From the IMG/VR virus record IMGVR_UViG_3300034682_000436, positions 1 to 30,610 of that record: a DNA stretch of 30,610 nt; one strand, written 5' to 3'. The notes beneath the pieces are model-generated. The model worked only from the letters and a program-made list of their open reading frames with translations, did not search any database and had not been told where the DNA came from. The position numbers and the translations under genes were made by a program. The stretch is from a virus. Every line of letters begins with the position of its first letter. Position 1 is the stretch's first letter. Positions 1 to 18,509 of the stretch are shown in pieces.

Positions 1-1011
1 ATGCTTAAATCAATTCAGTCTCTTAGGGGGATTGCTGCGTGGTTGGTTGTAGTTCATCACATTCATCAGATCATGCTTCCGTCTGGAGTCGGATATAAAT
101 ATATTGATTCTATTATCCTAAAATTTGCCTCTGGTGTTGATCTCTTTTTTGTTATTAGTGGCTTTATTATTTATAACAGCATAATTGGTTCAAGTTCTTC
201 CGCATTTATCTTTCTCGCTAAACGCTTGTGGCGCGTTGTTCCTTTATACTGGTTTTATACTTTTGTCGCCGTTATGGCAACCATGTTATTGCCAGGGATA
301 GTTCTGCAACCTAGTGTAGAAATTAACGAAGTGATAAAGAGTTTGCTTTTCATACCATACATGAACACGGAGTTCGGGGTTCATCTTCCTTTTTTAACAG
401 TAGGCTGGACCCTAAACTATGAAATGTATTTTTATGTTGCATCATTCTTTGCTTTGTTGATATCAAGAAAGAATTATTTGCTTATCATCTCTTTTTTAAT
501 AATCTCAATATCTTCTATTATCGCATGGGTTTCCAATGATGCTTCATTTTACGCTGACGGGGTAGTTAATGAGTTTTTGATAGGTGTTTTTGTAGGGTGG
601 CTTTATCGCTCTGGAATAATAAAAGGAATTAACTCAAAATTATGTTTATGGCTGATATTATTGGCATTGTGTTTCATATTGGCTTCGAATAGCTATCATG
701 ATTATATATCTGTAGGAATACCTTGTGGCGTTATAGTTTTATGTTTCTCTCTTAGTGAGAGCAGATTAAATGGAAGAAAGGTTGTTAAATATCTTTCCAT
801 CCTTGGTGACTGGTCTTATTCAACTTACTTATCTCATGTCTTAGTTATATGCATCGTGATGAGGGTTTATGAGGCTTATAGTTTAAATATAATTGCATGC
901 ATGATTGTTTCAGTGATAGTGACAGCTTTTGTTTCTTATTATACATTCAACGTCATAGAATCAAAGCGGATACCATATTTTAAAAAACGAACGCACCACA
1001 CTGCAAAATAA
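1..1011 (+). CDS. acyltransferase family 3 membrane protein (probable O-antigen acetylase)
   Basis: This is a 336-aa, strongly hydrophobic protein with about ten predicted membrane segments. It matches the acyltransferase-3 (OafA/Oac-like) family, which transfers acetyl groups to surface polysaccharide in the inner membrane. The family N-terminus is visible: LRG at residues 8-10, then a hydrophobic helix ending in His-His at 19-20, where the family's catalytic His lies, and the GVDLFFVISGF motif at 45-55. The ATG is the first base of the window. The protein begins just where family members normally begin, so it is probably complete, but its promoter is unseen. The gene is much more AT-rich than the virion genes and lies on the opposite strand just past the tail-fibre module. 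That is the usual place for lysogenic-conversion cargo such as O-antigen modification. The substrate is inferred, not shown. Confidence 0.88.
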   Translation: MLKSIQSLRGIAAWLVVVHHIHQIMLPSGVGYKYIDSIILKFASGVDLFFVISGFIIYNSIIGSSSSAFIFLAKRLWRVVPLYWFYTFVAVMATMLLPGIVLQPSVEINEVIKSLLFIPYMNTEFGVHLPFLTVGWTLNYEMYFYVASFFALLISRKNYLLIISFLIISISSIIAWVSNDASFYADGVVNEFLIGVFVGWLYRSGIIKGINSKLCLWLILLALCFILASNSYHDYISVGIPCGVIVLCFSLSESRLNGRKVVKYLSILGDWSYSTYLSHVLVICIVMRVYEAYSLNIIACMIVSVIVTAFVSYYTFNVIESKRIPYFKKRTHHTAK

Positions 1012-7526: not shown

Positions 7527-8239
7527 ATGCCAAATACCCCCTGCAGTTTGCCGATCACGCCCGTTATCGCCTCTGTAACCGAACCGCCAAGCGATGTGTT
7601 ACCCAGCGCACTGACAGTGTTTGTCCATGCGCTGCTGTTGTTCTGGTCACCACCATCAATTTTGCTGAGGAAACTGTTTACGGCCTGGTCAGCTGCGGTT
7701 TCGGTAATAAGCGGCTGCTCGAAATCCCAGAGCCAGGAGCGCTGAGGAAGCGGATCATTACCGGCTGAGTTGTCCTTAACCGTTTTCAGGATGCAGTTGT
7801 TATATATCAGCGACGGGGTGGCCACGATGTAAGTACCGCCCAGGTTGGCATGTGCCTGAAGCACCGCCTGAAGCGAGCTTAGGGTTACCAGTTTGGTCAT
7901 AGCGCCGGTATTCTCGTTCACCGGCGCGTCCATCATCAGGCTGACCCTCAACGGCTGAGCCAGAAGCGCGTTAGCCGCGACGGTCTGGTTAGCAAATGGG
8001 TATTTAGCAATGTCGTAGTCGACCATCGTTGCGCCCTGAACAGGACGCCAGTGACAGAAATATTTATCCAGATCAGTAAGGTTAATTGCCCCTCCTATCA
8101 GCCCGGTCACAAAGCTGGCACTCTGGGTTAGTGCCACTATGGGCAGCATGCCGCCAGGGATAGCCTCCGCAACTCCATTGCAGAGGATAACCGGTGAGAT
8201 TTCAAAGCCAAGCCGGTAGAGTTCACGAGTAAATGCCAT
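7523..8239 (-). CDS. Dit-like/baseplate initiator protein downstream of tape measure
   Basis: This 238-aa protein follows the tape measure gene and starts one base inside it. Its first half (ILCNGVAEAIPGGMLPIVALTQ, then FCHWRPVQGATMVDYDIAKYPFANQ) looks like the Dit-like N-terminal domain seen in compact contractile baseplates. The C-terminal 60 residues are Ser, Asn and Gly rich and less ordered. It probably attaches the tail tube to the hub and starts baseplate assembly. I infer the role from position and from its resemblance to Dit-like proteins. Confidence 0.6.
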   Translation of the reverse strand: MAFTRELYRLGFEISPVILCNGVAEAIPGGMLPIVALTQSASFVTGLIGGAINLTDLDKYFCHWRPVQGATMVDYDIAKYPFANQTVAANALLAQPLRVSLMMDAPVNENTGAMTKLVTLSSLQAVLQAHANLGGTYIVATPSLIYNNCILKTVKDNSAGNDPLPQRSWLWDFEQPLITETAADQAVNSFLSKIDGGDQNNSSAWTNTVSALGNTSLGGSVTEAITGVIGKLQGVFGI

Positions 8240-10059
8240 TATCCAGTCACTCCCAGCTGTGATGATGAAACGATGGCATTGCCGCCTGTGTTGTTGAATA
8301 TCTGGATAACCGCGCCCTCGCTAACCCGGTTCCCGGCTCCCTCTTTCGTGGACATGGCGGAAATGAGTTTTGCCAGAATTGCAGGGTCGTTGAGATTCAA
8401 CCTGTCGTTAGCGCCAAGCCCGGTCGTTTTAACGACGTGGCGGATATACTCCGCTGTGTCGTTCTCATTCGACGGCGCCCATTTTTTCGCTATTTCGCTG
8501 ACTGTGTTGATGCCGCGGGTGCCATAAATTTGCAGCTGTTTCGCCGATGCAAGCACACCCTCATCGAGGGTTGGGAATACCGCAAATTTTCCGCTCTGCG
8601 TGTTGTGCGTGCCGTACCCCTCTGCCCAGCGCAGATTGGTCGGGTTATTGAACCGGTCGGCGATCGTCCTGCCTTTCGCGGTGACATCAGCAGGGGTTGG
8701 GTCAACCGGCTTAACATCACCACTGGAGAAGAAGCGCTTAACACCCTTCAGCCATCCCCACACCCGAGGGTCATCTTCAGAACCAGGCGTGTAAGTCTGC
8801 CCGGTCTTCGGGTCAGTGACTGTCTTGTTGCTCAGTATTGAGGATCCGGAAGTCACATCCGATACGGAGATGTCGGTTTTACCCACGACCCAGTCGTAAA
8901 CTTTACCGATGAGCGTCCCAAGTTTTTCGATGCCGGCCATGAAGCTGTCAACGTCTTTGGTGAACTCTGGCGATGCAAGGTATTTCCCGAAGCGCTCTAT
9001 TCCGCCAGCCAGACCATCAATCCACTTACCGAGTTCTGGCGACTGCAGCACCGTATCAATGGCACCTGCCAGCGCATCAGAAAGCTTGCTCAGTTGCGGG
9101 GTTAACGGACCGAGCCCGCGCACAAACGTATTACGGATGCTCTGCCAGCTGTAATCCAGCTGGACGTTGAAATCCTGCCACTGCCGTGCCTGCTGATCGG
9201 TGATCTGCAGTAACTTCGCATCCTTCTGCGCCCGCCGTTCCATCGCATCTATTTCTTCATCGCTCATGTTTTTAAAGCGATTCAGGTCATCAAGGCTGAA
9301 GAAGTTCGTCAGGCCGTAGGCGTTGGCTCCCTGCAGAGTGCTGCCGTTTTTGACAAAGATGTCTCGAGCATTGCGAATCAGCTGCGGAAGAAGTTTGGCC
9401 GGGTCCTGGTCAGGGTTGTTAATGCCCATAGCCTGGAACTGCCAGCGCTTTGACAGGTCCATCTGGCTGTCACGAATAGCCCCCAGCGTTGCTGTTGGGT
9501 TGCCGAGCGCTTTCTGGTAGTTAATGGCTGTGGAGTCCAGCGCGCCGATGCTCGTACCGATCCCGAGAGAGGTGAAACGCTGGGAACCAGTTGTGGCCGC
9601 CAGACGGTTCAGGCCGAACAGACCACCTACGCCCAGCACGCCGGTGAACAGGCCGACGATGCCACCCCATGACAGCAGGCTTGTGGTGGCATCCCTGATG
9701 TGCCCGGCCAGAGATTTCGCGTCCTTCGTGGCGTCACTCAAAAACCCCTTTGATGAGCGAGTTTTCTTGTTGAAGTCTTCCTGACTTTTGTTCGCCCGGT
9801 CCAGGCTGTCGGTAAGCCGCTCAATGCCGCTGTTTATCGACAGAATCGCGCTTGCCCCCTCCGAAAAAGCTTTAGCCAGTAGGTCGCCCTCTGTTTTCGC
9901 TTTCGCCGTCTCTTTGGTGGCATCAGTGGCGCCATGCGCCAGCCCGCGCCATGCTTCAGGCAGGTCCTCAAGTGCAGCCTGATATTCTTTAAACTTCTCC
10001 ATAAACGCGACAAATTTGTCGTCATTTACGTCAATATCGACAATAGACTTAGCCACCAT
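8239..10059 (-). CDS. tape measure protein with C-terminal lysozyme-like domain
   Basis: This 606-aa protein sets tail length and occupies the tube. Residues 1-125 are largely coiled-coil helix with polar and Ala-rich heptads. A hydrophobic, Gly-rich stretch at about 128-150 (WGGIVGLFTGVLGVGGLFGL) could insert in the host membrane. The middle is helical. From about residue 470 a compact domain begins FNNPTNLRWAEGYG and continues with FAVFPTLDEGV and KWAPSNENDTAEYI. This matches the PRD1 P5-like/lytic transglycosylase-related lysozyme-like domain found in virion-associated muralytic proteins. The tape measure thus likely carries its own peptidoglycan-opening activity. The start overlaps the end of the frameshifted chaperone by 11 bases. 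At about 600 residues it is short for a myovirus. Confidence 0.88.
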   Translation of the reverse strand: MVAKSIVDIDVNDDKFVAFMEKFKEYQAALEDLPEAWRGLAHGATDATKETAKAKTEGDLLAKAFSEGASAILSINSGIERLTDSLDRANKSQEDFNKKTRSSKGFLSDATKDAKSLAGHIRDATTSLLSWGGIVGLFTGVLGVGGLFGLNRLAATTGSQRFTSLGIGTSIGALDSTAINYQKALGNPTATLGAIRDSQMDLSKRWQFQAMGINNPDQDPAKLLPQLIRNARDIFVKNGSTLQGANAYGLTNFFSLDDLNRFKNMSDEEIDAMERRAQKDAKLLQITDQQARQWQDFNVQLDYSWQSIRNTFVRGLGPLTPQLSKLSDALAGAIDTVLQSPELGKWIDGLAGGIERFGKYLASPEFTKDVDSFMAGIEKLGTLIGKVYDWVVGKTDISVSDVTSGSSILSNKTVTDPKTGQTYTPGSEDDPRVWGWLKGVKRFFSSGDVKPVDPTPADVTAKGRTIADRFNNPTNLRWAEGYGTHNTQSGKFAVFPTLDEGVLASAKQLQIYGTRGINTVSEIAKKWAPSNENDTAEYIRHVVKTTGLGANDRLNLNDPAILAKLISAMSTKEGAGNRVSEGAVIQIFNNTGGNAIVSSSQLGVTG

Positions 10060-10797
10060 TGAAGGAACCCCTGTCTTTTAGCGCGGAAATGATGTAACGC
10101 TGGCGGTACTGCGCCGGGCTGGCGAACTCCTCGCCGGTTATTTCCCTGATTACCCGCCAGAAACCCTCATTCGACGCCCAGTCTAGGAGGGTATATGCGA
10201 CGTTTCCGGCTGGGCATTCTGGGTCTGGGTATCGGTAGGAGGATTCGACGTCTGCAAGGAATCGCGGAACGCCGTAACGCTCGATGATACGAGTTGCCCA
10301 CCGAACATGCCGATCACTGAGCCCACCGTCGGGGCGATCAGATGGGCTTTCTGAATGGCAGAGGTAACCATAAAAAAAACCACCTCACCTTCAACTTCGC
10401 GGTATTCGTCAGGAGAGATAATCCCCTGCTTCATCGCGACTTCGAAAGATGCAGTTTTCCAGGCACCGCAGTCATTCCAGACCACAGACGTAAGGCGCTG
10501 GATCTCGTCAACGATGTTTGGGGCCTGCTGGGCCTGCTGGGCCTGCTGGTTAGCTTCGTCCATCAGCTCCTGCTCGCGCTTGAGCTTTTTGCGGAGCATC
10601 ATCGCGGCGACGCGCGCCGATCCCAGACCGCCGACCTGTGAGATGAAGTTGGTAAAGAGGTTGCCCAGCAGCAGGCAATGCTCCTCCACCACCTCATACG
10701 GGAACGGGGTCACATGCAGGTACACGATTGACCCGTCTTCCCGGGTTATGTTTGTTACCAGGTTGAGCTTTTTGTCAATTTTCACAATCAGACCCAC
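10049..10797 (-). CDS. tail assembly chaperone, long -1 frameshift product
   Basis: A -1 slip at the T8 run (10372-10379) after codon 142 of the tail chaperone gene opens a new frame of 107 further codons, ending at TAA 10049-10051. The full product is about 249 aa. The added sequence is plainly protein-like (ERYGVPRFLADVE, then TLLDWASNEGFWRVI and QYRQRYIISALKD) and ends GSFNGG, overlapping the tape measure ATG by 11 bases. In the -1 frame two TGA codons lie just upstream of the slippery run, so the frame opens exactly there. This follows the G/GT arrangement known from lambda and found in many tailed phages. It also explains why about 120 bases between the zero-frame stop and the tape measure appear non-coding. 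Confidence 0.82.
10183..10797 (-). CDS. tail assembly chaperone, short zero-frame product
   Basis: This 204-aa protein lies between the tube gene and the tape measure gene, the standard position of the lambda G / P2 E tail chaperones, which bind tape measure and tube subunits during assembly. It has a hydrophobic start (IVKIDKKLNLVTN), a helical Lys/Glu and Gln-rich centre with a QQA repeat at about residues 84-92, and an unusual tail past codon 142. That tail is decoded in the zero frame from bases that also encode the -1 extension, so part of its sequence is a by-product of the dual coding. Its start overlaps the tube gene by 10 bases. The ending TSHIPS stops at 10183. Confidence 0.8.
   Translation of the reverse strand: MGLIVKIDKKLNLVTNITREDGSIVYLHVTPFPYEVVEEHCLLLGNLFTNFISQVGGLGSARVAAMMLRKKLKREQELMDEANQQAQQAQQAPNIVDEIQRLTSVVWNDCGAWKTASFEVAMKQGIISPDEYREVEGEVVFFMVTSAIQKAHLIAPTVGSVIGMFGGQLVSSSVTAFRDSLQTSNPPTDTQTQNAQPETSHIPS
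10372..10380 (-). promoter_or_regulatory. -1 ribosomal frameshift site (T-run)
   Basis: On the minus strand the run reads G followed by eight T, in frame as GTT TTT TTT. T TTT TTT fits the X XXY YYZ slippery heptamer, and a -1 slip continues as TAT GGT TAC. Upstream in the -1 frame the reading frame is blocked by TGA codons, and downstream it is open for 107 codons. A short GCCCA/TGGGC stem lies about 25 bases downstream and could stimulate slipping, but this is weak. The site is inferred from the sequence and the known family pattern. Confidence 0.78.
10522..10548 (+). repeat. three perfect tandem copies of a 9-bp unit
   Basis: The unit GGCCTGCTG is repeated three times without change. It lies within the tail chaperone gene and encodes the Gln-Gln-Ala repeat of that protein on the minus strand. 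A 9-bp unit keeps the frame when copies are gained or lost, so length variation would be tolerated. Confidence 0.9.
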
Positions 10798-11228: not shown

Positions 11229-12623
11229 TTACGCCCCTACAAAGTTGGTTACGTTCACGTTAAACGTGATGGATTCGAAGCCGCGGCGCGGCGTCATCAC
11301 GGCGCTCAGGCCGTTATATTTGCCATCGGCGTAATCTGACGGGTTCAGGCTGGTGTAATTCGCGAACGGAACGGCGTTAATTACTGCGTTCCCGGCATAC
11401 GTGCCTTTCTCGTACTCGGTATTGAAATCCTGCTGCGTCAGTGCGGTACCAATCACGCGACCCAGGATCAGGCCGTAACTGATGCCGTTGCGCAGCGTCT
11501 TCAGCGCGCGGCGTTGCAGACGGTCGATGCCGTTCTGCTCGTAGTACAGCGGGTTAACAGTGGTGTTTGACCCGTTGATGATTTCGTTGGCCAGATCCAG
11601 CTCAAGGTTGATTGCAGTCCAGGCCACTGAATACCAGTAGTTGAACGGATTGCCGTCAAGCATGTGGCCTGCCACCAGCATTTTGTTGCTCAGCCCACCT
11701 TCCGCGGCGGTGCCGACGTAGTTGATGCTGTTGTCCTGGAGTTGCTTCAGCAGCGTTCCATTGCCTTCTACCGGGTACTCTGTAACCCCGTAACCAAATC
11801 GGTACGCCATTGGCGGTACCATGTTTGAAGAGCCAGGATCGTTTACCAGCGAGGACTGGAACGGGAACGCCATGGAAAACTCGCCCGCAGGGATGTTTGT
11901 CGACTCCACACCTGCAAGCACAGATTTGTTTTTGGTGGCGACCCACGCCGGATAGGTGGCAATCGTGGTGGTGACAAAGAAATAGACCAGTGACGCCGGG
12001 CTGGTATACAGACCTGTCAGGGTTTTAAACGTCGTTTCGCCATCCCATTCGCGCGGCACCAGGTACGAGAAGAATTTCTGGTAGGTATTGCCCAGAGAAA
12101 TATCCTCATCGATGAAGTCGGCCAGTGCAGCCACAGCAGCCGCAACAGACACATCACCCAGCTCCAGCACATAGACCGCGCGGGTAGTTCCCTGGGACCA
12201 GAACGTGGTGTTCATCTCGATGATTTCGTTTGCCGCCACTGTTTTCACCGTACCCATAACTGTTGCCGTGCCGGGGTCAGTCACCAGCGGATAAGTGAAG
12301 GCGGTAGAAGTGGTCACGGTGGCCGTTACGGCGCGGTTATACGCTGCTGGAGTAACGCCAGAGACTACCAGCGGGATAGTGTCTCCAACATTCCAGCCAT
12401 GCGCCGCAGAAAGGGTCACCGTGACCACGCCGGTTGCCCAGGTGATCGTTGAAATAGTTTTAGCCGGTGAGGTGATATCCTTCAGATCGTCTTTCGTTGT
12501 CAGGAGCTGATACTCACCTGCAGCCAGGGTTGTTCCGCCCATGGAGATCATCGCGCCGGATTTGAGCAGCTGAGAGGGCTTCGGTGGATTGGTCACCGAG
12601 ACGTTAATGTTAACAATTGCCAT
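11229..12623 (-). CDS. tail sheath protein (DUF3383-like)
   Basis: This 464-aa protein is the contractile sheath, of the DUF3383 type. It begins AIVNINVSVTNPPKPSQLL and contains the family's FPFQSSLVNDPGSSNMVPPM stretch near residues 250-270 and a C-terminal domain with RRALKTLRNGISYGLILGRV. Between about residues 58 and 126 it carries an extra beta module (ATGVVTVTLSAAHGWNVGD, then AAYN, then STAFTY). This strongly resembles the FCCH/Ig-like modules of the baseplate J and cement-like proteins here. As the sheath surface is exposed, this module would decorate the tail. A sheath gene proves that the tail is contractile even though the regulatory genes are lambdoid. Confidence 0.87.
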   Translation of the reverse strand: MAIVNINVSVTNPPKPSQLLKSGAMISMGGTTLAAGEYQLLTTKDDLKDITSPAKTISTITWATGVVTVTLSAAHGWNVGDTIPLVVSGVTPAAYNRAVTATVTTSTAFTYPLVTDPGTATVMGTVKTVAANEIIEMNTTFWSQGTTRAVYVLELGDVSVAAAVAALADFIDEDISLGNTYQKFFSYLVPREWDGETTFKTLTGLYTSPASLVYFFVTTTIATYPAWVATKNKSVLAGVESTNIPAGEFSMAFPFQSSLVNDPGSSNMVPPMAYRFGYGVTEYPVEGNGTLLKQLQDNSINYVGTAAEGGLSNKMLVAGHMLDGNPFNYWYSVAWTAINLELDLANEIINGSNTTVNPLYYEQNGIDRLQRRALKTLRNGISYGLILGRVIGTALTQQDFNTEYEKGTYAGNAVINAVPFANYTSLNPSDYADGKYNGLSAVMTPRRGFESITFNVNVTNFVGA

Positions 12624-16010: not shown

Positions 16011-16871
16011 TTAAAGTAAGACCAGCGCGCAGCTGTCGGTGTTATTCCAGGTCAGGAAACCAGTCGCACTGTCATAGCTGACAGTCTTGGAGTTGCCTGA
16101 TTCGATGGCGAGCACTTTTACCGGCAGCGTGATGTCGGAAAGCGCAACCGCGCCGATGGTGCCCTGTGTGGTAGCAGCGCCGCCTGGTGCAGTTGCCGGT
16201 GCGTAGGTGAATGTCGTTGAGCTTGGAACAGACAGCACTACCACAGTGCCGTTGTACGCCGCAGGTGCAACGCCGCTGATTTTCACGTACTGACCAGCAG
16301 TAAGGCCGTGCGCTGATGCGGTTGTCGCCGTCGCCACGCCATTGGCATAGGTCACAGCAGTTGTCGCAATATCAGAGCCAGCGAAACCGGCCGCCGCCGC
16401 AGTTGTGATCTGGTTGTTTACGAAGTCCCAGGCCAGCTGAGTTTTCACTGAAGCGCCAGAAGTGCCCAGCGCGATAACCTGCGCAGATGCCTTCAGCGGA
16501 ACGCGCATGTTAGAGCCAAGGCGGTAGTACGAAACGCTCATGCCGGAGGCGTACAGCGGGACCGGCGACTGCGGAGTGGTCAGGCCGTTGTGAGCCTGAT
16601 TGAAGACGGTGAAGCCTTCCAGCTCGGCAACAGATACAGCGCGACGGATGTATGACCCACGCGGGCTTGAACTGGTACCAGGCAGAAGCTCAGCAACCGG
16701 CAGGCCGCCCCAGAGAGGTTTGGTTTCCGTTGCCGCCACGGTGCCCGCTGCCAGGTTGAAGCGGTTGGCCGGGTCATCCAGCGCCACGCCCTGAATATAA
16801 CCGTCGGACTGCACACCGAAGGAGCCCAGCGCGTTCGTGGTTGCCATCGGGTTAAGAGATAAGTTAGCCAT
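16011..16871 (-). CDS. capsid cement/decoration-like protein with FCCH-like insert
   Basis: This 286-aa protein lies between the protease-scaffold fusion and the major capsid gene, the usual position of decoration (cement) proteins. Residues 1-165 and 241-286 appear to form the core beta structure. From about 172 to 240 there is an inserted module with the pattern GVATATTASAHGLTAGQYV, then ISGVAPAAYNG, then STTFTY. It aligns closely by eye with the module in the sheath protein and, less closely, with the one in the baseplate J protein. It probably projects from the capsid surface. The capsid-binding role is inferred from position. Confidence 0.68.
   Translation of the reverse strand: MANLSLNPMATTNALGSFGVQSDGYIQGVALDDPANRFNLAAGTVAATETKPLWGGLPVAELLPGTSSSPRGSYIRRAVSVAELEGFTVFNQAHNGLTTPQSPVPLYASGMSVSYYRLGSNMRVPLKASAQVIALGTSGASVKTQLAWDFVNNQITTAAAAGFAGSDIATTAVTYANGVATATTASAHGLTAGQYVKISGVAPAAYNGTVVVLSVPSSTTFTYAPATAPGGAATTQGTIGAVALSDITLPVKVLAIESGNSKTVSYDSATGFLTWNNTDSCALVLL

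Positions 16872-16886: not shown

Positions 16887-18509
<1,623 letters not shown>

Follow-up and report, generated by a model that had tools for sequence, protein, structure and literature searches.

The window, by which we mean the complete viral record of 30,610 bases that was analysed, carries on its minus strand a contractile-tail morphogenesis module with terminase, portal, head genes, sheath, probable tube, a putative chaperone gene, tape measure, baseplate and tail fibre. The part of this module that concerns us is the succession of sheath, probable tube, putative chaperone gene and tape measure (Table 1), an order that is common to relatives. Homologues of the tape measure protein in these relatives are annotated as tape measure or lytic transglycosylase. 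We regard the 145-aa gene as probably encoding the tail tube protein because of its place between the sheath and chaperone genes.

Three further observations concern other genes of the window. The head maturation protease gene (16887-18506, minus strand) has an N-terminal part that matches NUDIX hydrolase families (phrog_1198, E 2e-16) along with protease families (phrog_530), an unusual combination. The family phrog_9998 is matched both by the tail sheath protein and by a second protein of the virion module (16011-16871, minus strand), which hints at a common added domain. At the window's edge, beside the tail fibre genes and on the opposite strand, lies an O-acetyltransferase gene (1-1011, plus strand; phrog_3333, with a weaker O-antigen acetylase match) that is possibly a surface-antigen conversion gene.

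Table 1. Features in and around the putative chaperone gene, in window coordinates
Feature	Position	Strand	Basis
Tape measure protein, lytic transglycosylase-like C-terminal part	8239..10059	-	phrog_2276 tail length tape measure, 8.2e-28; phrog_873 endolysin, 6.8e-35
Overlap of extension end with tape measure start (ATGGTGGCTAA), 11 nt	10049..10059	-	sequence
Predicted -1 extension, 107 residues and TAA	10049..10371	-	phrog_14324 match in all 26 aligned sequences
Apparent intergenic gap, 123 nt, coded by the -1 frame alone	10060..10182	-	pN/pS
Doubly read stretch: 62 codons past the slip site, plus the 0-frame stop	10183..10371	-	pN/pS
0-frame gene, putative tail assembly chaperone short form, 200 aa	10183..10785	-	phrog_11810, E 1.2e-79
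Slippery heptamer T_TTT_TTT, part of the T8 run	10372..10378	-	identical in 156/160 distinct relatives
Probable tail tube protein, 145 aa	10788..11225	-	phrog_6566 (function not given by family); position
Tail sheath protein	11229..12623	-	phrog_205 tail sheath, 2.2e-43

The slip site and its two reading frames

A run of eight T lies at 10379-10372 on the minus (coding) strand, in the context GAGGTGG-TTTTTTTT-ATGG, and is read in the 0-frame as GTG GTT TTT TTT ATG. The coding strand of the window has no other run of at least seven T. Free of stops from 10384 onwards, the -1 frame reaches its TAA at 10051-10049, which gives a stop-to-stop length of 111 codons. The first codon of the predicted extension, TAT, starts one base back from the tabulated interval, at 10372.

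The 0-frame gene ends with TAG. Its most likely start, judging from relatives, is the GTG at 10785; RefSeq annotates the equivalent codon as the start in E. coli 88COLEC, and other relatives have ATG there. An alternative GTG upstream, at 10797, would give 204 aa. With the start placed at 10785, the predicted products are 200 aa (not 204) and 245 aa, so the 249-aa product proposed in an earlier, sequence-only reading of this DNA would be four residues too long. The predicted fused product consists of 138 shared and 107 new residues. The same reading described the space before the tape measure gene as a 120-base gap, which we correct to 123 nt (10182-10060), and it stated that the extension overlaps the tape measure start, which we confirm: the tape measure ATG is at 10059, and an overlap is likewise found in 138 of the 155 distinct relatives scorable for it. 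It had also argued that upstream TGA codons show that the -1 frame is entered only at the run. In the window, a TGA is indeed present in this frame just 5' of the T8 run; the -1 frame of some relatives, however, already opens 26 nt upstream of it. Since the TGA is thus not universal, it is the conserved heptamer that sets the entry point.

Further upstream in the gene, a tandem 9-nt repeat (GGCCTGCTG, plus strand) at about 10524-10550 corresponds to Gln-Gln-Ala repeats in the protein, and its copy number varies among relatives.

Conservation of the site and selection on the -1 frame

Relatives of the locus were taken from E. coli genomes, phage records, viral contigs and bacterial genomes. We scanned 255 sequences, 248 of which were scorable, leaving 160 that are distinct. 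All 160 have a -1 frame that stays open beyond the 0-frame stop, although it is important to consider that this complete openness arises partly by construction, as the scoring rule demanded an open -1 frame of suitable length. Two observations are independent of the rule, namely the identity of the heptamer and the fact that just 7 sequences failed, each from a cause that can be seen or is likely. Four of these lie at contig ends or are truncated at the 5' end (L061, L089, L132 and L136), and one is a copy of the window (L105). In L099, from Kluyvera, the gene is broken by indels; we dismissed this case as a probable assembly error, its close relative L100 being intact. The last, L172 (IMGVR_UViG_2917413769_000001), has T9 at locus position ~2880, which joins both frames at the DNA level. 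It is 98% identical to the T8 relatives L101 and L156, and its T9 reflects either an indel that occurred naturally or an error in sequencing the homopolymer.

The homologous site reads T_TTT_TTT in 156 of the 160 distinct sequences, and its conservation reaches down to ~25% protein identity. The natural variants, in each of which the -1 frame is kept, are G_TTT_TTT in two Serratia sequences (L097 and L098), C_TTT_TTT in one (L193) and T_TTT_TTC in one (L158). The run as a whole is T8 in 144/160, T7 or T8 in 157/160 and T6 in 3. The two Phe codons are preceded by GTT in 130 sequences, ATT in 14, TGT in 6, ACT in 4, GCT in 3, GTG in 2 and ATC in 1; the third position of this preceding codon is therefore T in 157/160, for Val, Ile, Cys, Thr and Ala alike. 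Elsewhere in the gene, Phe is encoded by TTC 373 times vs 189 times by TTT, and Val by GTT in about one quarter of cases, where these counts come from 94 loci that are not independent because many are related. Two distant homologues with T8 are on contigs binned to other phyla (L102, a Nitrospira MAG, and L103, a Mucilaginibacter MAG). In L102, another reading frame, homing-endonuclease-like by eye, directly follows the extension, at the place where one would look for the tape measure gene.

We analysed diversity and pairwise pN/pS in 48 less redundant relatives without indels, pairs of which are not independent. Diversity is 0.49 at third positions upstream of the run and 0 within it. Across the 120 nt that separate the 0-frame stop from the tape measure start, variability shifts to the third position of the -1 frame (diversity 0.39, vs 0.14 and 0.12), and pN/pS is 0.22 in the -1 frame vs 2.04 and 1.84 in the other two. 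Within the doubly read stretch, pN/pS is 0.56 in the 0-frame and 0.66 in the -1 frame, as compared with 1.31 in the unused third frame. A sliding view of 92 sequences shows that 0-frame third-position diversity drops after the run, in a gradual rather than an abrupt change. Judged by these substitution patterns, the extension is kept by purifying selection at the protein level.

A T8 run followed by an open -1 frame is well beyond what chance would produce, because the run is the only one of at least seven T on the coding strand, the site is kept as TTT TT(T/C) in the 160 distinct relatives that were scorable and the -1 frame is under purifying selection. These data, along with the position of the gene, support the sequence-only reading, which had proposed a -1 frameshift at the T8 run extending a tail chaperone by 107 residues and had suggested looking for conservation of the run and the -1 frame. 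It had named an absence of homologues of the extension, together with -1-frame stop codons in close relatives, as evidence against its proposal; homologues exist, and their -1 frame is open.

Probable identity of the protein

From a comparison of the locus and its neighbours, the window's phage is placed in the group comprising Felixviridae, as defined in PMC12451628, and their relatives. The locus has 77% DNA identity with Chronis/RothC, and PdC23 is related by protein; gene order is common with Chronis, RothC/D and PdC23. We are fairly confident that the locus, in what is a contractile-tailed relative of Felixviridae, encodes a tail assembly chaperone with a programmed -1 frameshift, where the role of the protein is one that we infer from context. 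Specifically, the gene sits between the probable tail tube and tape measure genes and has a -1 extension, an arrangement that is the hallmark of tail assembly chaperones, e.g., lambda G/GT and P2 E/E+E' (PMC5009743, PMC3931495, PMC3091744). Slippage at the poly-T run very probably gives two forms of this chaperone, one short and one longer and rarer.

Searches for direct similarity were less informative. PHROGs assigns the 0-frame protein to phrog_11810 and the extension to a separate family, phrog_14324, both of unknown function. The comparison with tail chaperone families suggested in the sequence-only reading gave no match to the curated families in Pfam or NCBIfam, which are too diverged for this absence to count. 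A sequence search of the PDB yielded no match for the 0-frame protein, and the extension gave a single meaningless one (E 0.98). The 0-frame protein was modelled with AlphaFold2 (pLDDT 79); the model had no significant match in a fold search of the PDB, and its sole significant match in a viral fold library is an uncharacterised relative. Among the next 33 viral fold matches are several whose annotation names a tail chaperone, a tape measure chaperone or something similar (Maja, ctxpQ22, ct9dX1, POR1 and Sano), with E from 0.4 to 1.3 and none significant; these are suggestive only. The model of the extension (pLDDT 65) was too poor for a useful fold search.

The frameshift is of a kind known in phages; unusual here are the long doubly read stretch and the deep conservation of the site. 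In lambda, a -1 frameshift likewise yields two isoforms, gpG and gpGT, from a gene flanked by those for tail tube and tape measure, although lambda is a siphovirus and the window's phage a myovirus. The lambda slippery site is G_GGA_AAG and lies near the end of G, whereas the T_TTT_TTT of the window lies 62 codons before the stop. A likeness is also found in P2 E/E+E' (T6G) and in Smp131 and related P2-like prophages (T7G or T7C), which also combine a contractile tail with a -1 shift at a T run in the gene preceding the tape measure gene (PMC3931495, PMC3091744). As here, the P2-like extension overlaps the tape measure start and no downstream RNA structure was found (PMC3931495, PMC3091744). 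However, we found no sequence similarity, the P2 products are shorter (91 aa for E and 142 aa for E+E', vs 200 and 245 aa), and the frames overlap by 37 nt in P2 vs ~190 nt here. The chaperone locus of Vandenendeviridae/Andersonviridae, e.g., phage Adele, also has a conserved -1 frame that spans what looks like a gap, along with a GTTTTT motif in the chaperone gene, likewise in myoviruses (PMC12846349), but its conserved T run is shorter and the phage family is another one. A further parallel is Shigella spa13, whose slippage extension of ~110 residues overlaps the start of the length-ruler gene spa32 (PMC5009743); there, it is RNA polymerase that slips, and the system is type III secretion rather than a phage.

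Mechanism and alternative explanations

We propose that the majority of ribosomes would make the 200-aa short form, while in a minority the tRNA-Phe on the two UUU codons of U_UUU_UUU would slip back by one base and re-pair perfectly. The slipped ribosomes would continue in the -1 frame and produce the 245-aa form with its 107-residue C-terminal domain. If lambda G/GT is a guide, the common N-terminal part may serve as a coat for the tape measure protein, with the C-terminal domain perhaps recruiting tail tube subunits. That the ribosome rather than RNA polymerase slips, as well as any ratio of the two forms, is part of what we infer. The plain T run had been taken in the sequence-only reading as a hint that the mechanism may differ, but T_TTT_TTT fits the canonical X_XXY_YYZ form, and P2 (T6G) and P2-like phages (T7G/T7C) use similar runs in the same gene (PMC3931495, PMC3091744). 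Ribosomal slippage on two Phe codons would explain all of the variants, T6 and T_TTT_TTC included, with the caveat that in the three G/C_TTT_TTT forms the P-site re-pairing would be imperfect.

We folded the 40-90 nt after the run in 25 relatives and found no conserved stem as a downstream RNA stimulator (mean z -0.15 to -0.44); P2-like sites likewise lack one (PMC3091744). A strong stem in the window (z ~ -3.8 at 60 nt) was rejected as a stimulator, not being kept in most relatives. We also rejected the Shine-Dalgarno-like GAGGTGG adjoining the run, which is lost in relatives, e.g., L007 and L092, and follows conserved Glu-Gly-Glu-Val codons.

The main alternative is that RNA polymerase slips in the U8 run, such that some transcripts carry an extra U and yield the same long protein by normal translation. 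We consider this unlikely to be the explanation, yet it is a serious alternative or addition to ribosomal slippage and could contribute. E. coli RNA polymerase gives ~5% -1-frame reporter output on T7 and ~10% on T8, with none detectable below T7 (PMC6260861), and T8, the commonest run length at this site (144/160), is long enough for it to slip. Shigella spa13 is a close formal parallel, in which transcriptional slippage adds 112 residues overlapping the start of the length-ruler gene (PMC5009743). However, the three T6 relatives are below the length at which slippage by the E. coli enzyme is detected and nonetheless keep the -1 frame, and a further relative has T_TTT_TTC. The T6 relatives, though just 3/160, suggest that RNA polymerase slippage is not the sole mechanism across the family. 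Run length also tracks the residue before the Phe pair, being 7 mostly with Cys, Thr or Ala and 8 with Val or Ile, as expected if the heptamer is what is selected; this pattern is not decisive, since T7 satisfies the RNA polymerase model too. A further idea, to which we give slightly less weight, is that the nearly invariant T8 serves both RNA polymerase and ribosomal slippage, which would jointly set the long:short ratio, and that ribosomes ending at ATGGTGGCTAA boost tape measure translation. If true, the dosage of ruler and chaperone would be coupled.

Other explanations dispense with the chaperone or with the frameshift itself. It is quite improbable that the frameshift is real and the protein something other than a tail assembly chaperone: a curated chaperone family match and a significant fold match are both absent, but tail chaperones share no sequence similarity between groups (PMC5009743, PMC3931495), and the position, the two-isoform design and the tape measure overlap fit the lambda/P2 kind. 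We consider it very improbable that the extension is not fused at all and belongs to an independent small gene with a start codon to itself. Although PHROGs lists it as an independent family (phrog_14324) and the RothC annotation has a 34-codon ORF in this interval, the first half of the window's -1 frame has no ATG, GTG or TTG. Among the 160 relatives, 117 lack an ATG in this frame before the 0-frame stop and 118 lack ATG, GTG or TTG in its first 20 codons, and conservation of the frame starts at the slippery run. Finally, we attach almost no credence to the open frame and T run having arisen by chance, or to a sequencing artefact that hides a single fused gene. The T9 of L172 does fuse both frames in DNA, but the comparative data refute this reading, as 144 distinct sequences have T8, complete E. 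coli genomes and isolated phages among them, and pN/pS is 0.22.

We found no earlier record of such a frameshift in this phage family, and a paper on Felixviridae (PMC12629751) does not mention frameshifting, but other literature may exist. As the sequence-only reading anticipated for simple gene calling, most annotated relatives have hypothetical proteins and an unannotated gap at the locus, and the long form is missed. The long product thus appears to be missed systematically by gene calls. The natural variants, i.e., T8, T7, T6 and GTT TTT TTC, provide a ready-made set with which ribosomal and transcriptional slippage could be told apart. Our analysis gives a likely role to phrog_11810 and phrog_14324 in Felixviridae-like phages, which are found as prophages of Enterobacteriaceae.
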